30,748 nt of DNA, from the IMG/VR virus record IMGVR_UViG_3300030102_000779, positions 4,625-35,372 of that record, one strand, 5' to 3'. A program made the translations under genes and the position numbers. Within the stretch, counting starts at the first letter, position 1. Each line of letters opens with the position of its first letter. This stretch comes from a virus. Below are positions 17,556-30,745 of the stretch, one piece after another. The notes beneath the pieces were generated by a model. That model saw nothing but the letters and a program-made list of their open reading frames with translations, did no database searches and was not told where the DNA came from.

Positions 17556-18291
17556 TTGGTCTCCATAATTTTACTTTTTTAGATTTAAAATCATAGTCTT
17601 TATGTTGTAAAATATAACTAAGTCTAGCTTGCAATAAAGCATCATCTTCAGTCAATTTAGCTTTTATAAAAGTTTCTGTAATAGCTTTCCAATAGTCTTT
17701 TGGTTTATGACCTTGCAATATTCTATTTGCACTTACAGGCCCAATACCTGGACAACCAGGAAAATTATCCGTACTATCGCCAACAAGTGTTTGCATTGCA
17801 TGATTATATTGTGCTTTAGCTTTTGTTATTTTTAATAAAGACGAACCATCTTCACATATATTTGTAGGTATAGTTTTTAAATCTTTATCAATAGAAACAA
17901 TAATTTTTGTACCTTTTATTGATGGATCTGTCGCATATATACCCATTAAATCATCTGCTTCTAATCTCGGTTCACTCATTGCTTCATGTTCTTCAAATAA
18001 CCATTTACGCATCTGTCCTAAACATACAGGTTTACGTTTGTTTATTCTATTTAATTTATAATCCGGATATATTTGTTTCCTAAAATTATTACTATCTGAT
18101 AAAAATATTAATACTTTTTTTGCATTAAAATTTTCTGTAAGTGTTTTAATATAACTTTTATATTTATCTTTTGCTGTATTAAAATCACTGTGCAATGTCC
18201 ACATATCATCACCCCAATCTATTGCTTCTTCTATACCTGATGAGATCTGATAACATAGAATATCGCCATCTATTAACAATGTATTTGACAT
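17545..18291 (-). CDS. 5'-3' exonuclease (T7 gp6-like)
   Basis: A 248-aa FEN/5'-nuclease family enzyme. Metal-binding acidic residues are visible in order: D8 and D10 (LLIDGDIL), E111, D113, D114 (LEADDLMG), D135 and D137 (SIDKDLKT), D172 and D175 (VGDSTDNFPG). The helix-hairpin contact motif CPGIGPVSANRIL follows at 180-192. In T7, gp6 removes RNA primers, degrades host DNA and aids concatemer processing. It starts in a TAATG overlap with the HNH gene, with GGAG upstream. Length is somewhat below T7 gp6 (300 aa). Confidence 0.95.
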   Translation of the reverse strand: MSNTLLIDGDILCYQISSGIEEAIDWGDDMWTLHSDFNTAKDKYKSYIKTLTENFNAKKVLIFLSDSNNFRKQIYPDYKLNRINKRKPVCLGQMRKWLFEEHEAMSEPRLEADDLMGIYATDPSIKGTKIIVSIDKDLKTIPTNICEDGSSLLKITKAKAQYNHAMQTLVGDSTDNFPGCPGIGPVSANRILQGHKPKDYWKAITETFIKAKLTEDDALLQARLSYILQHKDYDFKSKKVKLWRPNGR

Positions 18292-18773
18292 TATTTGTTC
18301 TCCATTTGTTTTACTAAAAATCTTGCTAACCGCATTAGCTCGTATGGGTGTGCATTATTTTTTAGTGTGTTTGCTTTCATACTTATCCATTGCACATTGC
18401 CAGGCACATATCCTATATTTGGATCTATTCTGTCAATTGATGCAGATCTATTCCTATCACCTAAAGCAAAACCCATTTGTGTATTAAACACAGGGCATAT
18501 GCTATCTGTAGGATAAATTTTTTCTAAATACTCTTTTGTGATCGTACACTCTACATTTCTTCGTCTTGCTCTTTTTCGACATGCACGCAATACTTCTCTA
18601 ATATTAAGAGAAAACCAAGCTTGTTTAGTACACCATTTTTCTCGTATACCACTTTTACGATATACATAACCTATAAATATAAGATCATTTACACAATCAC
18701 CTTTTTTATATGTTTTATTTGTTTTTAAAACATTAATGTATTTCTGCCCAGTTTCTACCAATTCTTGACTCAC
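18291..18773 (-). CDS. HNH endonuclease, free-standing
   Basis: A 160-aa protein with an HNH nuclease C-terminal half: ICPVFNTQMGF (about 92-102), ASIDRIDPNIGYVPGNVQWI (111-130), then SMKANTLKNNAHPYELMRLA (131-150). Residues D114, R115, N126 and N135 occupy usual positions, although the canonical first His is not evident. The N-terminal half is basic (RACRKRARRRNVEC). The GTG start lies within the DNA polymerase gene's end (41-base overlap) and has no clear ribosome site, so the start is uncertain. T7 has an HNH gene (5.3) in the same place between polymerase and exonuclease, suggesting a recurrent homing-type insertion site. Confidence 0.8.
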   Translation of the reverse strand: MSQELVETGQKYINVLKTNKTYKKGDCVNDLIFIGYVYRKSGIREKWCTKQAWFSLNIREVLRACRKRARRRNVECTITKEYLEKIYPTDSICPVFNTQMGFALGDRNRSASIDRIDPNIGYVPGNVQWISMKANTLKNNAHPYELMRLARFLVKQMENK

Positions 18774-22414: not shown

Positions 22415-23197
22415 CTAAACTATCCCCGGCAAAACTTGTTGTTTGTGTTCATCATAATTTTCATTTGCTTTACTCCACAAATAATCAATTAATTGTTGTC
22501 CATCTTTAAAATCTAATTTTGTTTTTTCTGGTGTAAATTGGTTGCCAAAAATACAATCAGTTGCTTTTTGCCAATGTTGTTTATAAAGATGTTGTGAACC
22601 TGCTGTTAATATTAAATGACCTAATTTTAATTTAATATTGTATTGTGCTTTTAATTGCAACAATACATATAAAGATATTTGTGAAAAATTAAATACATCA
22701 TAAACCCAACCAAGCCAAGCGTCACTAGAACGCATTGTTGCATTACAATACAAAATATTTTTTCTAATTATAAATTGTAAAGTTAATGTACACGGAATGT
22801 CTTTACTAGGTCTTGGATTTTCTCTCCATATACTAATTATAGCTTGTCGACTTGACTCGTCATTTGCAAGTGTTTCGATAACATATGGTAATTGATCAAC
22901 AACTTTTACTCCATAAGAACCAAAATAACGTACGCCATCGTCACTAAATTTATGTATCATTTTAGAATAAGGTGAGATTGTTGCTACACGATTGTCACCT
23001 GACAATATCCAAGCAGCTTCTGCATATCTAAATTTGTGACCAATATCTCGTTCTTTAATAGATACCATTGGTTCAGTCATCGATACTCTTGTTTGATAAC
23101 CTAACAATTCTTTTGTTTCCATTTTTCTTGGTGCAAATACTGGTGCAAATTCTAAATCTTTCAGCATTTGTACCCATACACTAGTCGCGCTGGCCAT
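22415..23197 (-). CDS. Thymidylate-synthase-fold enzyme, probable dCMP hydroxymethylase
   Basis: A 260-aa protein with the ThyA-type active site: E60 (AEAAWILSG), nucleophile C136 (DIPCTLTLQF), R156 and D159 (MRSSDAWLG), H203 and Y205 (GSQHLYKQH). In thymidylate synthases a conserved Asn follows the LG motif and reads the uracil ring; here that position is Asp (D167, GWVYDVFNF). T4 dCMP hydroxymethylase has Asp at this position, and this protein shares with it the CTxT-Q pattern after the nucleophile, MRSxD, and GSxHxY. It would thus make 5-hydroxymethyl-dCMP from dCMP and methylene-tetrahydrofolate. ThyA or dUMP hydroxymethylase activity remains possible. It overlaps the upstream kinase gene by 17 bases, a clear pathway link. 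Confidence 0.7.
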   Translation of the reverse strand: MASATSVWVQMLKDLEFAPVFAPRKMETKELLGYQTRVSMTEPMVSIKERDIGHKFRYAEAAWILSGDNRVATISPYSKMIHKFSDDGVRYFGSYGVKVVDQLPYVIETLANDESSRQAIISIWRENPRPSKDIPCTLTLQFIIRKNILYCNATMRSSDAWLGWVYDVFNFSQISLYVLLQLKAQYNIKLKLGHLILTAGSQHLYKQHWQKATDCIFGNQFTPEKTKLDFKDGQQLIDYLWSKANENYDEHKQQVLPGIV

Positions 23198-23651
23198 AAA
23201 TCTCCCTCTTTACAAATTCTTCTGTGTTGTGTTCTGCATAATTGTATAATGTCCAATAAGGGTACATGTTTTTAAACAAATGATATGCATCATAAACTTT
23301 AGAAACATCTTCAAAATCTTCGTGTTCTTTACGTTCTAAAAATCTTTTTAATACTAAATCTTTAGGTGGCAAACACAATATGTATTTTGTAGTCGCATGT
23401 TTTTTGCATTCTTGTTCCATTGAATATACATTATAAGATGGACCTGCTCTAAATGTCGTTCCGTACACAAGCTCGCTTGGCCAATGTCGATCAATAATTA
23501 CATTATCTAATTTTAAACAATCCATATGTGGCTTGTAGGCTTTAGAATAAATACCATTATGTATATATAAATAATCAGTTAATTTTTGTTTTAATAAATT
23601 TGCAAGTGTTGTTTTACCTGCACAATCTGGTCCTTCTAATATAATTTTCAT
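23181..23651 (-). CDS. P-loop (deoxy)nucleoside monophosphate or DNA-base kinase, thymidylate-kinase-like
   Basis: A 156-aa kinase with Walker A EGPDCAGKTTLAN at 6-18 (K13), a DRHWPSELVYG motif (D54, R55, S59) equivalent to the DRY region of thymidylate kinases, and a basic lid (KRFLERKEHED). It is shorter than cellular Tmk (about 210 aa). Possible substrates are dTMP, dCMP or the hydroxymethylated nucleotide made by the adjacent enzyme; small P-loop kinases also act on hydroxymethyl bases already in DNA in hypermodified phages. Its ATG overlaps the stop of the lysozyme-like gene (ATGA), and its end overlaps the hydroxymethylase-like gene, so the two are probably co-expressed. Substrate cannot be decided from sequence alone. 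Confidence 0.85.
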   Translation of the reverse strand: MKIILEGPDCAGKTTLANLLKQKLTDYLYIHNGIYSKAYKPHMDCLKLDNVIIDRHWPSELVYGTTFRAGPSYNVYSMEQECKKHATTKYILCLPPKDLVLKRFLERKEHEDFEDVSKVYDAYHLFKNMYPYWTLYNYAEHNTEEFVKREIYGQRD

Positions 23652-24022
23652 TTTAACTCCTGTTCTATGTCTTTACTTGATGTTTCAATAATTAATTTTC
23701 CATATTTTTGTTGTAAAGTTTTTATTAAATTTTTTAATGAGCTAACTTGATGATATGTAAAATTAGTAGACCCAGCTAATTGTATTCCAATTGCCTCGTC
23801 ATTATGTAAACCTAAACCAAAACCAATTGCATCATCAGCTCTTCCTTTTTCGACTTTGCCATCAAGTGTTATAAAATAATGATATTTATAACCTAACACA
23901 CCTTCTTTGCGATGTTGCATTTCGACTTGGTGCTTAGTAATATCCAAGTTTGATGGTGTATTAGTATGATCAATAAAAATTGAATTAGTTTCTTTTCTAG
24001 TTCTTAATCCGACATTTCTCAT
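23648..24022 (-). CDS. T7-lysozyme-like protein lacking amidase zinc ligands
   Basis: I choose the ATG at 24022, seven bases after GGAG; an upstream in-frame ATG at 24088 lies deep inside the endonuclease gene. The 124-aa product aligns with T7 gp3.5 (151 aa): SIFIDHTNTP with AIFVHCSAT, HRKEGVLGYKYHYFI with the GYHF region (Y47 for Y46), GKVEKGR, and AIGIQLAG. T7 gp3.5 binds zinc through H17, H122 and C130. Here the H17 position is Asp18 (with His19 next to it), and the protein ends at about the place where H122, K128 and C130 would follow. Amidase activity is thus unlikely; the second role of gp3.5, binding and inhibiting the phage RNA polymerase, could remain. Confidence 0.8.
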   Translation of the reverse strand: MRNVGLRTRKETNSIFIDHTNTPSNLDITKHQVEMQHRKEGVLGYKYHYFITLDGKVEKGRADDAIGFGLGLHNDEAIGIQLAGSTNFTYHQVSSLKNLIKTLQQKYGKLIIETSSKDIEQELK

Positions 24023-24455
24023 TAATCCACTCCGTAGGTATTGTTTCCTTTGCATATTTAAAACCGTTTGTTTCACACCATTTAGCATATGTTGTTTTAG
24101 ATATTTTGCTTATACGTTGCATTGGATTTGAAAACACAAATCTTATATCTAAATGCGGGTGTTGTTCTTTAATCATTAAATGTTTTTGACGATCTTTTGT
24201 AAAAAATATTCCTTTCGCTTCTATAATTATACCATTTGGTAATTTAAAATCTGGTGTATATCTTGTTGCTTTTGCTGGTTTCACAAATTTTACCGTTAAC
24301 GTTTCATACTCAAAAGGAACGCCTAGCTTTTTTAATTGCATAGCTATGCGTTCCTCTAAGCCACTTCTATACGAAGTCTTCTTGTTGCGAAGGTTCGACG
24401 TTGTCTGTCTCTTCTTTCGCCACAAGTTGTTCTTCTTCCGTATGTACATAGCCAT
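23997..24455 (-). CDS. Endonuclease I, Holliday-junction resolvase (T7 gp3-like)
   Basis: A 152-aa protein matching T7 gp3 (149 aa). Catalytic residues are present: E34 (RSGLEERI), D69 (RYTPDFKLPNG), E79 and K81 (IEAKG), followed by KHLMIKEQHPHLDIRFVFSN, almost the T7 sequence. The enzyme resolves branched DNA and breaks down host DNA. The N-terminus is about 13 residues longer than T7's and very basic. The first 89 bases overlap the end of the SSB gene in another frame; GAAGAAG before the ATG is the only visible ribosome site, so the start is moderately certain. Confidence 0.93.
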   Translation of the reverse strand: MAMYIRKKNNLWRKKRQTTSNLRNKKTSYRSGLEERIAMQLKKLGVPFEYETLTVKFVKPAKATRYTPDFKLPNGIIIEAKGIFFTKDRQKHLMIKEQHPHLDIRFVFSNPMQRISKISKTTYAKWCETNGFKYAKETIPTEWINEKCRIKN

Positions 24456-24963
24456 CTTCTTCTTTAAAACCTAACGAGTCCATAGACGGCATCGCACGAG
24501 ATTGTAATTTAAGTATTTGTACTCCAATTAATCTCAATGAAATACCAGCTCCATTCGCTGGCACATAATAAGGTATAAGGTCTGCAGATACTTTAACTTC
24601 GCTGCCACCAAAAATATCTGTATTGATAATTGGTTGACCTTTTGCATCAACAACATGCGGTCTAATTGCCACATCGCCAATTTTAGCTTTAGTTTTAATT
24701 TTAAATAAAACTTTATTGCCTTCTTGTTCATCATATGGTTTAGCCGCAAGCTTGATTTTCTTATTAGGTGCTTTGGCTTTTTCTGATGCTATGTTGTCAT
24801 CGTAAGCCTTGTCGATGATAGTAATAAGTTTTTGTGCCTTATCCTTATCGACAATTATGTTACAACTATACAACCCATCTGGATTAAACTTCGTATCTGG
24901 CTGTTTAAGCCATGGATAAGACGCATTTCCGACAGGCGTTGTAACTCGTACATATTTAGCCAT
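24367..24963 (-). CDS. Single-stranded DNA-binding protein (T7 gp2.5-like)
   Basis: A 198-aa OB-fold-type SSB, compared with 232 aa in T7. The N-terminus reads MAKYVRVTTPVGNASYPWL, followed by KFNPDGLYSCNIIVDKDKA; the centre contains KIGDVAIRPHVVDAKGQPI; then SADLIPYYVPANGAGISLRL. The acidic C-terminal tail (EEEQLVAKEETDNVEPSQQE, ending DFV) carries the penultimate aromatic residue typical of gp2.5, where it contacts polymerase and helicase. AGGAGG lies close before the ATG, and an SP6-like promoter candidate lies just upstream. Confidence 0.93.
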   Translation of the reverse strand: MAKYVRVTTPVGNASYPWLKQPDTKFNPDGLYSCNIIVDKDKAQKLITIIDKAYDDNIASEKAKAPNKKIKLAAKPYDEQEGNKVLFKIKTKAKIGDVAIRPHVVDAKGQPIINTDIFGGSEVKVSADLIPYYVPANGAGISLRLIGVQILKLQSRAMPSMDSLGFKEEDGYVHTEEEQLVAKEETDNVEPSQQEDFV

Positions 24964-25011: not shown

Positions 25012-27456
25012 TTATGAAAAGAAATACGTTGCTTTGTTAATCTCTTCAATATCAAGTGTCCCTTTTTTTGGAAGTGGCTGCATTTTTACTCTAAGTTTGT
25101 CGGGCAACAAAGTATAGATTTGTTCTCTAAAATGGTCTAATGGATCCATTTCAGTATACATTTGTATAAACGCAGATCTGGTACATTTATTTAGTATATC
25201 CATATCCGCTGGTAAAGTCGCATATGAGTCATGTACCATTCCAAAATCTTTTATGCCATGTTGTATGCAATGATCTATTGTAAGCAACATCGCTGTTGCG
25301 TCAAGACTATGCACAAAGTTTGGCGAAATACCATTTGCTTGTTTTCTTCTATTTATTTTTTCTGTATTTGATTTTATTCTTATACGACCCATCATTTTAG
25401 TTTTGACAACCATATCTTTTTGGTCATAATAAGCTTGTTGTACTGGAAAACCTAAAGGAGAAACCCAGTGTACAGGTGTTTTAAGTGTTGCACAAAGTCT
25501 TGCAGCGTGTTGTAGCCATGCCATTGCTTCTCGTGCTTTAATCACTGTATCACCAATAGAGTCCCATATTATATGTGCTAAAAATAAATTGGCATTTGTT
25601 CTATTCATAAATGGAACACGATCACCACGTTCTTCTCGTTCTTCTACATAATCATCGACAAAATCAACGCAAGAATATCTAGTACCACCATATGGCAAAA
25701 CCATTACAGATCGTTTTGTTGTTTTACGATCAACACCAAAATCTAACCATTGTTTTGCGTATGGATTATCAGATTGTTTTAATTTTAAATTAACTTTATC
25801 AGCAACTATTTGATAAATATCTTGCGGATCATTTGTGTTTGTTAAATTTACTGCATGTCCACCAACTTCATCTCTCAACATTGCTGAAAAATGTTGCAAA
25901 CCATTACAACTACCATCGATATTAATAGGTAAACTACATTCGTAAGCTCTACCATGTTTTATAAACTTATCAAATTCCATACACGCAGCAAGAAATTGCC
26001 ATGGTTTATCTGCTTGTTCCCAAAAATTACAAGTAAAAGGTGATTGACTACTTGCAATAATATCTTCTTTGTGTTTCATCGCCCATTGTTGTCGTTCTTG
26101 TAAAGGCACTTTATCATAACCATACATGTTTGCTAAATGTATACACAAGTAACGTTCACCAACTTCACCTAATGGTTTACTATTAGAAAATTTTAATAAT
26201 GCTTTAGACAAATCAGGTCCTTGTGGATTTAAATATGCTGGAACAGGGTACATACGACCTCTAAAATCAAACTGATGTGGAAAACCAATTTCAGTTTCAT
26301 CTTCAAACTTTTTACCAAGCCATATTGTTTTAGCAGTCGCTAATCTTTTACTTCCTAATTTTTTATTAAGTGTATAAACAGCAGCAGCTTCGCCTTTCCA
26401 TCTTTTTAATACTTGTTTTTCGTCATCATTTAAAGTTGTTTTATTAATAATAGCTGAAGGTTTATTAGGTAAATCTAATAATTTACTTGTAACTAAACCA
26501 CCTCTATTTCTGTCATCATTATCAAACACAGTTTGTGCAACTAACAAAATATTTTTGTTAACTTTCCACATTGTATCTTGCACAGCATTAATACCTTGAT
26601 AAACACCAGGCATATCGTATTGATGTAATTCTTTTAAATAAGTTCTATGCGAAGTAATATTATGACCTGTAACAAGAAACATCGGCGATATATGTCTTGA
26701 TATATAACCACCACCAATAGGTCTTTTCCAACGTCTTGGTCTTATCAGCATTGGAAAATTTTCTGCATTTAAAAACTCATTAAAGTCTTTTACTTTTTTA
26801 ATCCACTCTAAAGTTTTTTCAGTTGGTTGTATTACAAAATAAGATCTTTTTCTTTTTATTTCTTTTGATACTTTACAAAGATTTGTTGCTTGTATAAATA
26901 TTGAGATTAACTTCTCGCCAACTAAAAGTTTTTCTCTTGTTGTCCATTTAGTCCATTCAAAGCCTTGTCTTTTACTACTAATTAATTGTTTCCATCTACG
27001 ATATTCATAATGTGATGTACGCTTGTTTAAATCTTCTTCTATTTTATCAAACAAAAAACCATGTGTTTCACAAAATTTACGAAAATATAATTCATCTTCT
27101 ATTTTACCACCTAAAGATATTGCTTGTGCTGTAAACTTACGTATAGTTGTTATGCCATCAATAATTCTTTTTGCTGCAATAACCGCTATAGTCTTTGTAT
27201 CTAATTGTGACAAAAATTGTGTTGCAACAAATTTAGGTCCTCTGTTTACATCTTGTAAAAACAAGTCTAATTCACGCTCATAATTTTCAATACTTGTTTT
27301 TAATAATTTTTTGCCATGTATTGTTAATGACTCATTTTCTTTTTCTATTACTTGTGCTTGTCTTATCTTTGTTTTATGCGCACCTCTATTACGCATTTCT
27401 TCTTCTAATGCTATTTGTTTATCTATTAAGTTTTTTATATCGCGATACCCAGCCAT
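25012..27456 (-). CDS. Single-subunit phage RNA polymerase (T7 gp1-like)
   Basis: An 814-aa polymerase of the T7/SP6 family. Catalytic residues: D514 (NIDGSCNGLQHFSAM), K581 and Y589 (KRSVMVLPYGG), D743 (GMVHDSYATLPAD). The segment before PNFVHSLDATA, at about 688-706 (MMGRIRIKSNTEKINRRKQ), corresponds to the promoter specificity loop and is several residues shorter than in T7, so promoter sequence should differ. Length is below T7 (883 aa), mostly in the region between the first two motifs and in the N-terminus. The ATG overlaps the integrase end by 22 bases and has GGAGG six bases upstream. It would transcribe all genes to its left. Confidence 0.97.
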   Translation of the reverse strand: MAGYRDIKNLIDKQIALEEEMRNRGAHKTKIRQAQVIEKENESLTIHGKKLLKTSIENYERELDLFLQDVNRGPKFVATQFLSQLDTKTIAVIAAKRIIDGITTIRKFTAQAISLGGKIEDELYFRKFCETHGFLFDKIEEDLNKRTSHYEYRRWKQLISSKRQGFEWTKWTTREKLLVGEKLISIFIQATNLCKVSKEIKRKRSYFVIQPTEKTLEWIKKVKDFNEFLNAENFPMLIRPRRWKRPIGGGYISRHISPMFLVTGHNITSHRTYLKELHQYDMPGVYQGINAVQDTMWKVNKNILLVAQTVFDNDDRNRGGLVTSKLLDLPNKPSAIINKTTLNDDEKQVLKRWKGEAAAVYTLNKKLGSKRLATAKTIWLGKKFEDETEIGFPHQFDFRGRMYPVPAYLNPQGPDLSKALLKFSNSKPLGEVGERYLCIHLANMYGYDKVPLQERQQWAMKHKEDIIASSQSPFTCNFWEQADKPWQFLAACMEFDKFIKHGRAYECSLPINIDGSCNGLQHFSAMLRDEVGGHAVNLTNTNDPQDIYQIVADKVNLKLKQSDNPYAKQWLDFGVDRKTTKRSVMVLPYGGTRYSCVDFVDDYVEEREERGDRVPFMNRTNANLFLAHIIWDSIGDTVIKAREAMAWLQHAARLCATLKTPVHWVSPLGFPVQQAYYDQKDMVVKTKMMGRIRIKSNTEKINRRKQANGISPNFVHSLDATAMLLTIDHCIQHGIKDFGMVHDSYATLPADMDILNKCTRSAFIQMYTEMDPLDHFREQIYTLLPDKLRVKMQPLPKKGTLDIEEINKATYFFS

Positions 27457-28451
27457 TGTGTGCCTCCATTGTGTGTACGTTTATCTAATACTTCTCTTGC
27501 TATTGTCACATTATGTGGTGCAAGATGAGCATATCTTAATGTAGTTTTATAATTCTTATGACCTAACCAAGCTTGCACTGTTTGTATTGAAATACCTTTT
27601 TGTACTAGTCTTGATGCGCAAGTGTGTCTTGTCATATGAAAAGTAAACTCTTTGTCATCTGCAAGTCCCATTTGTTTTCTTGCATTATTCCATACTAATC
27701 TAAAATCTTGCTCTGTTATATTTGCAAATGGTTGCGATGATAGTGAACGCAATATTTGTAAAGCCACAGCAGTTAATTCAATAGTACGAAACTTTTTATT
27801 TTTACTACGATATATAGTTAAATATCTACCATTAAGATCTTTGTCTGTATTTATCTTTTTAAGTTCATTCTTTGTCATACCAGTCTCAATCGCAAACATT
27901 ACTAATTTCGCAAACAACAATTGATTTGATTGACACAATATATTTATAAACTTGTTTTCTTCTTCATAAGAAAAATATCTTAATCTACCTGGTCCTTCAT
28001 CAAACCATTCAAACTCAGGCATTGTTTTAATAAAGTTTCTTTTGTGTGCATGTCTTAACATCAAAGACAAACAAGATAATTTACGATTACAAGTAGAACC
28101 TAAATTACCTTTTGCTTGCCATTTATTTATTAAGTTATCTAATGTAGTTTCTTTTATACTATTTATTTTAGTATCATGACCTATATCATCAACAACATTA
28201 GAACAAGTTTTATCTGCTGTATTAAATTTATTTCGAGTACGATCATACAATTGTTTTATTGTTAAATCATATTTTTCAGCATCAATTATTTTGCAAGTCT
28301 CTTCCCATGTGTTACCTGCTTTTAACAATTCTAAACATTGTTTTTCTGTTTGTCTTGCGTCATGCTCATCACCATTGATTTGTAAACGATAACGTTTATT
28401 ACTAAAAAGCAAATCAATTTGGTAACCTTTATTTCTTTGGCGATATGCCAT
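27435..28451 (-). CDS. Tyrosine integrase with first catalytic Arg replaced
   Basis: A 338-aa site-specific recombinase. The N-terminal part (residues 1-155) contains an arm-type and SAM-like core-binding region (NLINKWQAKGNLGSTCNRKL). The catalytic domain has K217/K219 (YRSKNKKFRTIEL), H272 and R275 (FHMTRHTCASRL), H298 (WLGHKNYKTT) and the nucleophile Y307 (LRYAHLAP). The motif holding the first catalytic Arg, normally TGMR, reads TGMTKNEL: codon 27875-27873 is ACA (Thr193), one base from AGA (Arg). Integrases at this location, upstream of RNAP, are known in SAR11 podoviruses and allow lysogeny. The ORF is otherwise intact, with an AAGGAGG ribosome site. Activity is doubtful. Confidence 0.92.
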   Translation of the reverse strand: MAYRQRNKGYQIDLLFSNKRYRLQINGDEHDARQTEKQCLELLKAGNTWEETCKIIDAEKYDLTIKQLYDRTRNKFNTADKTCSNVVDDIGHDTKINSIKETTLDNLINKWQAKGNLGSTCNRKLSCLSLMLRHAHKRNFIKTMPEFEWFDEGPGRLRYFSYEEENKFINILCQSNQLLFAKLVMFAIETGMTKNELKKINTDKDLNGRYLTIYRSKNKKFRTIELTAVALQILRSLSSQPFANITEQDFRLVWNNARKQMGLADDKEFTFHMTRHTCASRLVQKGISIQTVQAWLGHKNYKTTLRYAHLAPHNVTIAREVLDKRTHNGGTQWLGIAI

Positions 28452-28605
28452 TGTTTACCTCCTTATTTATATAATATGGTTTATTTTTTTTACCGTCAAT
28501 CGTACAATTAGGACAATTAACTAACGCGCCTTCTTTGTGTACATAATGATTGCCTTTGCAGTCATCACAATACTTTTCTATTTGTTGATTAATCTCCTGC
28601 GACAT
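28429..28605 (-). CDS. 58-aa zinc-ribbon protein
   Basis: Start chosen at the ATG at 28605, with AAGGAG 12 bases upstream; a longer frame to 28701 lies wholly inside the PLP-enzyme gene. The product carries two CxxC pairs: KYCDDCKGNHYV and ALVNCPNCTIDG (C13, C16, C31, C34), a zinc ribbon like those of small transcription or DNA-binding factors. It then ends in a basic Asn/Lys-rich tail. It overlaps both the upstream gene and the integrase. A regulatory role for the integrase or early genes is possible but not shown. Confidence 0.7.
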   Translation of the reverse strand: MSQEINQQIEKYCDDCKGNHYVHKEGALVNCPNCTIDGKKNKPYYINKEVNNGISPKK

Positions 28606-29398
28606 TCCAAAACAAAGCTCCTTTCGATGCATGTTGTTTAATATAACGCCAAGCTTTTGCATCATAAGCTTTTGCGCTTGCAAATGGTGGTAACTCTTCA
28701 TCTTTTTCTGCTTTTAAAAAAGGATACGGATGAGAGTAAACATTGCCATGACCGACTTCACCACGTTTCATATTACGTGCAACAGCAACACCATGAAATA
28801 CAGCATTTGGCCATGCAATTTGTAATGCTCTATGTAATACACCAGTCGATAACACTGTCCATACTTCTTTTGGTTCTGGTATTTGACTTGCGACTTTTAC
28901 AATTGATGCAGTTACATATGGATCGTTCTTAAAACCCATCTCTATATAATGTGCATTGTATATAATTGCATGGTCTCTTGCATGTTTTCTAAGTCCTGAC
29001 ATACCATATATTTTTTTAGCATGCAACTCTGCACCTAAATCTCTACATCGCTCTTGATGCTCAGATAATTCTTTTGCAAGTGGAATAAATAAACTTACAC
29101 GTTTATGGTATCGTTTAGCAACAGCACATAAAGATATACCTGCATAACCTTGTCTTGGTTGTGCATACACAATCTCATCAGCTGTAAGATTTTTTATAGT
29201 ATAATCTATAAATCTCATTTTGCTGCCGTATTTTAAATAGTCTTCTCGTACTACTTGAATACCATCATGTTCTTCAATTATTGGTTTTGGATTTGGATCT
29301 TGCCAGTTTTCTACAAGTCTAAGATATGCTGATTTATTTGGATATAAAAGATTTTTATCTTTGTTTAAATGATCTATTACATGTTCATTATGCGGCAT
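28589..29398 (-). CDS. PLP-dependent enzyme, fold type II (ACC deaminase / cysteine desulfhydrase-like)
   Basis: A 269-aa protein with the layout of the tryptophan-synthase-beta (fold type II) PLP enzymes. VREDYLKYGSKMRFIDYTI (50-68) holds the Schiff-base lysine K60, as in the GNKxRK motif of ACC deaminase. QPRQGYAGISLCAVAKRYHK (80-99) is the usual Asn/Gln-Gly helix that contacts the carboxylate, and STGVLHRAL (184-192) is the phosphate-binding Gly loop, here less Gly-rich. The protein is shorter than cellular homologues (about 330 aa). The substrate is unknown: an amino acid, either free or attached to a modified base. PLP enzymes recur in phage base-hypermodification loci, which fits the hydroxymethylase-like gene in this genome. 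It overlaps both neighbours, indicating a coupled operon. Confidence 0.8.
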   Translation of the reverse strand: MPHNEHVIDHLNKDKNLLYPNKSAYLRLVENWQDPNPKPIIEEHDGIQVVREDYLKYGSKMRFIDYTIKNLTADEIVYAQPRQGYAGISLCAVAKRYHKRVSLFIPLAKELSEHQERCRDLGAELHAKKIYGMSGLRKHARDHAIIYNAHYIEMGFKNDPYVTASIVKVASQIPEPKEVWTVLSTGVLHRALQIAWPNAVFHGVAVARNMKRGEVGHGNVYSHPYPFLKAEKDEELPPFASAKAYDAKAWRYIKQHASKGALFWNVAGD

Positions 29399-30392
29399 AT
29401 GTTTTTCTCCCTGGATGTGAATGAATTAAACTTGTGTTTTTTAGATAATGTAAACCTTTGTCTAAATATTCTTGCGGAATATAATTCTCTACATATCTAA
29501 TATAATCACAACAAACATCTTCCATGTTATACGGAAAGTTGCCTAATTGCTGACACAATTGCACCATACAATAGTCATAAAATTTTTTATCTCTTCTGCC
29601 TTTTCCTGGTACAAACATCAAGTCTAATGCTTCAAAACAATTTTTACCATAATAGCAATGGCTACTTCTATCTACCAAAGAGGGAAAGTATTCCGCGATA
29701 TCCATAACCATTGCAGTCATCACAAATTTGTACCTTTTAAAACCATGTGATGTCAACCAATCTAGAACCCAGTCAACTGTCTCACGCTGTTCTTGCAATT
29801 GGTTTTTTGATTTTAAATAATTGTACAAATCATGTGCAAGTTTGGGCGCATGCTCACATAAAAACTCTCGGCCACCTTTGTCATAACAACCCGTAGGTTT
29901 ATTAAAGGGAGGTATTTGGTTACCGATCGAGGTAAAAAAAGGAGCTTGATATCGTTTTATAAACTCTACCATTTGCTCAATCGTGCACAATCCGGCATTG
30001 TATATTGGTTTTAATATTGTATTACGATAACCGTGGTCAGACTCAAACGATGCGCCTGAACCTGTTATACGATGTACAATAAATAAATAAAACCATGTTA
30101 CATCACTACAATCTAATCTTGTTGGACAAACTTGTTGTGTCGTACAAGTCTCTTGTGTTTTACCATACCACAGATCTTCTAGCATATTTGCAAAACCTGC
30201 ATATCGTCTCCACACTGTGTCATATATAGTTACAACGTCCATTAATTGATCACCACATTTAAAGCTACGTGGATATTTACCAATATTACGTTCATTTAAA
30301 CTTTTAGCCAAACCATAGTATCTTACAAAGTCTACATGATAAGGTGTTATTTTAAGTTCTTCTGATATTCTTTTTGTCATCATGTTAGGCAT
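29388..30392 (-). CDS. 334-aa early protein of unassigned family (candidate DNA-modification transferase)
   Basis: The protein is largely helical and cysteine-rich. A striking central motif is FIVHRITGSGASFESDHGYR (104-123), followed by NTILKPIYNAG; another is TGCYDKGGREFLC. The C-terminal half (GFKRYKFVMTAMVMDIAEYF, then NCFEALDLMF) recalls the helix-hairpin-helix glycosylase-like folds of base-modification transferases and kinases described in hypermodified phages (the aGPT-PPlase group), but I cannot match a clade with certainty. Immediate coupling to a PLP enzyme (11-base overlap) supports joint function. The start is a TAATG overlap with the preceding gene and has AAGGAG upstream. Treat the functional call as a hypothesis. 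Confidence 0.6.
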   Translation of the reverse strand: MPNMMTKRISEELKITPYHVDFVRYYGLAKSLNERNIGKYPRSFKCGDQLMDVVTIYDTVWRRYAGFANMLEDLWYGKTQETCTTQQVCPTRLDCSDVTWFYLFIVHRITGSGASFESDHGYRNTILKPIYNAGLCTIEQMVEFIKRYQAPFFTSIGNQIPPFNKPTGCYDKGGREFLCEHAPKLAHDLYNYLKSKNQLQEQRETVDWVLDWLTSHGFKRYKFVMTAMVMDIAEYFPSLVDRSSHCYYGKNCFEALDLMFVPGKGRRDKKFYDYCMVQLCQQLGNFPYNMEDVCCDYIRYVENYIPQEYLDKGLHYLKNTSLIHSHPGRKTYAA

Positions 30393-30745
30393 TAAAATCT
30401 CCTTTGCATTGTATCTAAATCAGTTTTGTAACTATCTGTTGACAAATGCACAGATTTAGGCTTTTCCATATACTCAGGTTTTAACTCACCATTTTCATTC
30501 TCAAAATAATCTGGCCATGCGTGTATACGCCATTTCTTTTTCAATGCTAATTTACTTAAATTATTATTAAAAAAGTTTTTGACGTCTGTACGTTCTGCAA
30601 AAGAACCAAAGAACGGCTCTTGTTCATAATAACCACTTTTTGGTATTACACGGTCATCTGCAGGTAATGGCAATGCATGAACCAATGTAACACTTTCAAA
30701 GTTATTTATTTCATTTAGTTTTGTTAGTTGCTCTTCAAGTCTCAT
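30392..30745 (-). CDS. 117-aa early hypothetical protein (5' end possibly outside window)
   Basis: The frame opens at an ATG three bases from the right edge, so the ribosome site cannot be seen and the true start could lie beyond the window. The product contains a Pro-rich turn (LVHALPLPADDRVIPKSGYY), aromatic acidic segments (EQEPFFGSFAERTDVKNFF, WRIHAWPDYFENENGELKP) and ends DTMQRRF. No family recognised. Its stop overlaps the next start by one base (TAATG), and its last codons contain that gene's AAGGAG site, so it belongs to the same early operon. Confidence 0.65.
   Translation of the reverse strand: MRLEEQLTKLNEINNFESVTLVHALPLPADDRVIPKSGYYEQEPFFGSFAERTDVKNFFNNNLSKLALKKKWRIHAWPDYFENENGELKPEYMEKPKSVHLSTDSYKTDLDTMQRRF

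Follow-up and report, generated by a model that had tools for sequence, protein, structure and literature searches.

A clade-wide T7 lysozyme homolog without an amidase site in Votkovvirus-like SAR11 podophages, probably retained to regulate the phage RNA polymerase

In T7, the gp3.5 lysozyme combines two functions in one protein, lysis and control of the phage RNA polymerase (RNAP). A phage gene that encodes a gp3.5 homolog stripped of its amidase residues therefore raises the question of what keeps it. The stretch of DNA in which such a gene was found, here called the window, is 30,748 nucleotides long and comprises positions 4625-35372 of a 37,137-base IMG/VR virus record. Its RNAP, its gene order, and its closest isolates, HTVC200P and HTVC119P, place the phage near the genus Votkovvirus of the Autographiviridae, as a podophage of SAR11, bacteria that are abundant in the ocean. 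A first-pass annotation, made from the sequence of the window, had described a T7 lysozyme homolog with a damaged zinc site, retained by selection for an RNAP-binding role, and had proposed structure prediction and a check of close relatives for full-length versions. Our analysis suggests that gp3.5 of this Votkovvirus-like SAR11 podophage has lost its amidase and has been kept to bind and damp the phage's own single-subunit RNAP, a reading to which we give a probability of roughly 0.6. A literature search turned up no earlier account of an amidase-dead gp3.5 in these phages; it did not bring up the 2019 study of integrating pelagiphages that PMC10134795 cites, which might contain such a remark.

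A T7 lysozyme fold without an amidase site

The gene lies on the minus strand (Table 1), with its ATG at 24022, a GGAG 7 bases upstream, and a TGA stop that ends at 23648; the plus-strand reading of 23648-24022 contains many stops. The homology of its product to T7 lysozyme is far above chance, with matches to Amidase_2 in Pfam (E=7e-11), to the amidase family phrog_822 in PHROG (1.3e-25), and to T7 lysozyme 1ARO (7e-12). An AlphaFold2 model, computed from a 20-sequence alignment of window and IMG/VR sequences, has a mean pLDDT of 84.5, with residues 1-5 ill-defined, and its best matches among solved structures are T7 gp3.5 itself, 1LBA and 1ARO chain L (TM 0.82 and 0.83 over the query, rmsd 1.4 Å, ~30% identity). 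The gene also stands where gp3.5 stands in T7, directly after endonuclease I and downstream of the genes for RNAP and the single-stranded DNA-binding protein (SSB). By sequence, predicted fold, and position, the protein thus belongs to the T7 gp3.5 lysozyme family and keeps the core of its fold, as the first-pass annotation had held, and the model of the protein alone predicts that the fold outlasts the truncation, which comes after the last core strand.

What the protein lacks, compared with T7 gp3.5, is the zinc site, the catalytic Lys, and the C terminus. T7 retains H17, Y46, H122, K128, and C130 (numbered without the Met). In the window protein D18 aligns with the first zinc ligand, H17, and the alignment stops short of H122, K128, and C130, none of which has a counterpart; the three-ligand site is thus reduced to an Asp at its first position, just as had been noted from the sequence at the outset. 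Of the catalytic pair Tyr46 and Lys128, the Tyr is retained here, although it varies in related phages, and the loop that bears the Lys in T7 is absent; one alignment sets a Lys near the protein's last residues in the K128 column, but within an unrelated stretch. A loop of ~9 residues ahead of the long helix (T7 84-93) has also been deleted. Restoration of the C terminus by a downstream frame was considered and rejected, as no zinc motif occurs in any of the three frames over the 120 bases that follow. The first-pass annotation had argued from the ATGA overlap with the next gene that the truncation is not a sequencing frameshift, and this is sustained, because sequences identical to the window gene occur in two other IMG/VR contigs (L005 and L006) and all relatives share the same ending. 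On these residues, the amidase function of the window protein is almost certainly dead, and database entries that call these phage genes "lysozyme" or "N-acetylmuramoyl-L-alanine amidase" very probably misstate what their products do, which bears on endolysin counts in ocean viromes.

Table 1. Features of the window discussed in the text
Feature	Coordinates	Strand	Evidence
T7 lysozyme (gp3.5) homolog, almost certainly amidase-dead, 124 aa	23648..24022	-	Pfam, PHROG, 1ARO match, predicted fold
Basic N-terminal tail MRNVGLRTR, codons 1-9, aligned with T7 MARVQFKQR	23996..24022	-	
D18 codon, aligned with the first zinc ligand (H17) of T7 lysozyme	23969..23971	-	
ATGA stop/start overlap with dTMP-kinase-like gene	23648..23651	-	
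dTMP-kinase-like gene, first of a nucleotide-metabolism block starting exactly at the truncation point	23181..23651	-	
Endonuclease I (T7 gp3 homolog), directly upstream, overlapping	23997..24455	-	
Single-stranded DNA-binding protein (T7 gp2.5 homolog)	24367..24963	-	
Single-subunit phage RNA polymerase (T7 gp1 homolog), presumed partner	25012..27456	-	
ITSH insertion, RNAP residues 267-270	26647..26658	-	RNAP comparison
Tyrosine integrase (temperate potential)	27435..28451	-	

Extent, selection, and origin of the truncation

HTVC200P, HTVC119P, and S28C10 carry the Asp and the truncation of the window protein. The wider extent was assessed by searching viral contigs with RNAP, a scan blind to the lysozyme sequence; an earlier lysozyme-based scan, whose patterns included the Asp motif, was not counted on the question of recent loss, and some of the loci recovered with RNAP are the same contigs. 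The scan added 29 loci that contain the gene; one of these runs into a contig end and the other 28 are all truncated at the same place, while the fetched loci without the gene stop before its place. The exception is L149, with an RNAP of only 33% identity. In the RNAP tree, the truncated loci make up a single clade (SH-aLRT 100), separate from Pelagivirus, CRP-125, LUZ100, BB8, and T7. The proposed check for full-length close relatives thus found every relative in the clade truncated, and a recent loss in the window copy alone is rejected by all 28 informative loci. As far as the compared sequences go, the truncated, amidase-less state is old and clade-wide, and not an error.

Once catalysis has been lost, a metal ligand is expected to vary freely inside a conserved fold, as is seen here. 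The first-ligand column holds D in 7 of the 18 clade proteins, Y in 4, V and H in 2 each, and E, A, and R in 1 each, versus H in 22/22 sister-genus proteins; it is the 15th most variable among the clade's 106 ungapped columns, and, mapped on the RNAP tree, the position has changed at least six times. At Y46, Tyr is present in 9/18 clade sequences, the window protein included, and S, T, or D are among the replacements. The gene itself is under purifying selection, with a dN/dS of 0.055-0.16 in ten clade pairs outside the overlaps, comparable to or slightly higher than that of the RNAP gene; the pair L116-L117, an eleventh, shows one change of each kind and is uninformative. This agrees with the earlier claim that selection has kept the gene, and low dN/dS, along with the identical contigs and the shared truncation, leads us to reject a frameshift or a pseudogene. 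The related SAR11 podophage HTVC120P (L163, 6700-9600) has no gp3.5 gene between endonuclease I and primase; the gene is therefore dispensable, which makes its retention elsewhere meaningful.

The arrangement of the locus suggests how the truncation might have arisen. The truncated gene's place after RNAP, SSB, and endonuclease I is fixed. Pelagivirus has the genes for endonuclease I, lysozyme, and primase in succession, with no nucleotide-metabolism block, and in the clade the truncated gene is followed by an ATGA join, the coupling being found in the window phage and three relatives, and then by a dTMP kinase/thymidylate synthase block, ahead of which S28C10 has a pyrophosphohydrolase. An ancestor may have been truncated at the junction with this block, presumably when the block arrived, and so have lost its C-terminal 25-30 residues, which included the catalytic Lys and two of the zinc ligands. 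The first zinc ligand would then have drifted, while the fold core and the basic tail stayed under selection.

The N-terminal tail and the RNA polymerase

All 18 clade representatives have a basic tail of ~8-10 residues ahead of an invariant Arg (T7 R8), and in all 18 the tail columns hold Gly at T7 Q4, K/R at K6, Arg at R8, and Thr at T11. The basic tail of T7 gp3.5 is of similar length, and sister-genus proteins begin only 4-5 residues ahead of the Arg; the tail is absent from these and from the LUZ100 and CRP-125 proteins, and the clade may have gained its own tail independently of T7. In most lineages the tail-bearing starts are backed by start signals, with GGAG or AGGAGTGG shortly ahead of an ATG or TTG start codon; S28C10/L017 and L129 have no standard start codon at the tail start, and their starts are uncertain. 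In the window, the endonuclease gene extends through tail codons 1-8 and into codon 9. Across the clade, the endonuclease stop lies anywhere within 6 codons on either side of the Arg, and the gp3.5 tail pattern holds despite this shift. Because the endonuclease ends at differing places with a variable tail sequence of its own, we judge it unlikely that the tail is conserved as a by-product of the overlap, although the window copy taken alone is less clear. The deposited starts of three "lysozyme/amidase" genes (L001:7567-7860, L003:7558-7854, and L002:5076-5360) look too late and omit the first strand and the tail; in HTVC200P and HTVC119P, TTG codons farther upstream are a better fit, and the S28C10 start is uncertain.

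In T7-like lysozymes, the N-terminal tail sets RNAP inhibition (PMC10138996). In T7 lysozyme, residues 2-52 interact with RNAP, and the amidase requires zinc, whereas RNAP inhibition does not (PMC5445346); in the K128Y variant, the amidase is absent and RNAP inhibition is full (PMC5732464). The truncation takes nothing from the RNAP-interacting domain. Since fold, tail, and position have been kept but the active site is gone, action on RNAP would be expected: the truncated protein, presumably devoid of enzyme activity, would bind the phage's own RNAP and inhibit transcription.

The polymerase itself gives a mixed picture. PMC5445346 lists 17 T7 RNAP residues as lysozyme contacts, of which only 3 are identical in the window RNAP. 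The T7 fingers loop that carries two lysozyme-contact residues is absent from it, as it also is from the RNAPs of LUZ100, BB8, and CRP-125, phages whose gp3.5 proteins are complete. Within the clade the contact positions are no more conserved than usual, and surface positions are seldom unusually conserved. Transfer of RNAP binding from T7 by way of the contact residues is not supported by these comparisons. The clade RNAPs do carry an ITSH insertion six residues ahead of the T7 lysozyme-contact segment 307-312, which is invariant in 16/16 of them and absent from 17 other RNAPs compared; because the clade is one lineage, this proximity is a single coincidence and not statistical proof. A search for phage promoters in the window's intergenic stretches yielded nothing usable.

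The engineered, amidase-dead K128Y T7 lysozyme of Lemo21(DE3) has a natural counterpart in the window protein. The predicted function of the window protein is likewise control of RNAP without amidase; the difference is that K128Y is one laboratory substitution, and here the whole site has been lost naturally across a clade. The clade represents a natural separation of what T7 combines, with the active site free to vary and the tail and fold constrained, and it makes testable whether polymerase control alone suffices to keep gp3.5. If the action on RNAP is confirmed, the clade proteins might find use as natural brakes on the polymerase that are not toxic.

Lysis of the host cell and other possible roles

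The suggestion that lysis has been left to another protein fits what lies beside the terminase genes. The window's own record has a T4-type (GH24) lysozyme there, outside the window (G000:1345-1785; Pfam 1.7e-12), in which the Glu, Asp, and Thr of T4 lysozyme are in place, and GH24 lysozymes also occur in HTVC200P, HTVC119P, and G001-G003. In G005, the terminase-side slot is held by a complete T7-type amidase (HYHKC), ~50% identical to T7 gp3.5, which begins near T7 residue 12 and lacks the tail, and the same genome has a truncated, tailed copy in the gp3.5 place (L151:3507-3935 and L151:16923-17294, respectively). A small phrog_2524 protein, holin-like by eye, lies near both terminase-side endolysins. 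A separate endolysin would thus be a candidate replacement in the lysis slot, the T4-type lysozyme in the window phage and the tail-less T7-type amidase in G005; in the clade member S28C10, no second endolysin was recognizable in the genome. An S28C10 gene annotated as an N-acetyl-anhydromuramyl-L-alanine amidase (L012:22584-22892) has the look of a small membrane protein and no amidase match. A tentative extension, to which we would give rather less than even odds, is that a dual-function endolysin was split in two, into a tailed, dead RNAP regulator that co-evolved with ITSH and a separate endolysin in the late slot; if so, G005 carries both halves as T7 lysozyme homologs in one genome.

Three roles without RNAP were weighed, along with decay. 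The protein could be a scaffold that binds some other partner, such as endonuclease I, SSB, or the replication or packaging machinery; the conserved fold, the fixed neighborhood next to endonuclease I and SSB, and the poor conservation of the T7 contact residues would all suit this. We know of no other established partner for the gp3.5 family. The conserved tail, moreover, is precisely the segment through which T7-like lysozymes act on RNAP (PMC10138996), and we consider a scaffold unlikely. Binding of murein fragments or tuning of lysis by a non-catalytic, PGRP-like protein is a distinctly poorer prospect. PGRP-SA and PGRP-LC share the Amidase_2 fold without zinc ligands, and among PGRPs the receptors differ from the amidase forms by lost ligands with the fold retained (PMC8124813), but these are animal immune receptors of weak sequence similarity, the clade's residues at or near the cleft (H36, G45, Y46, and R52) are variable or replaced, and the gene sits in the early/middle block, away from the lysis genes. 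Continued cleavage of peptidoglycan, by another metal arrangement or without zinc, is very improbable: single ligand mutants of PGRP-LB do retain some activity on some substrates (PMC8124813) and Tyr46 persists in half of the clade, the window protein among them, but the other half has replaced it, and the ligand positions and K128 have been lost together. A decaying remnant heading for loss, for which the absence of the gene from HTVC120P might speak, is as hard to credit and is refuted in the main because dN/dS (~0.1) is well below 1, the frame being open in every member across a wide divergence, with start signal, tail, and, in four phages, ATGA coupling preserved.

Retention of the truncated protein for RNAP control, which we prefer to these roles, does not imply that its tail-less sisters are intact enzymes. 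The Pelagivirus gp3.5 proteins (HTVC168P, HTVC019P, HTVC109P, and Eistla) come from the same locus and the same kind of host and are 30-36% identical to the window protein, but they are full length, always retain the first-ligand His, and lack the tail, with the other catalytic residues partly eroded. In 0/11 Pelagivirus genomes are H17, Y46, H122, K128, and C130 all present (e.g., L013:6164-6589, L014:7902-8327, and L015:8432-8866), and the idea that all tail-less sister proteins are good amidases was rejected on this count. Y46F is common, and H122 is often replaced by Cys; where C130 has become Ser/Ala, a His usually follows two residues on (SPHF/APHF), which is perhaps a ligand swap.

Two other parts of the window merit mention. 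The four early genes of a cluster at 28589-30745 and L009:460-1179 are mostly without a Pfam match. One resembles threonine dehydratase (phrog_7093); judged by eye, three look alike in G005, and the cluster is possibly concerned with nucleotide modification. An endonuclease VII/HNH-like gene lies at 18291-18773, between the DNA polymerase and exonuclease genes.
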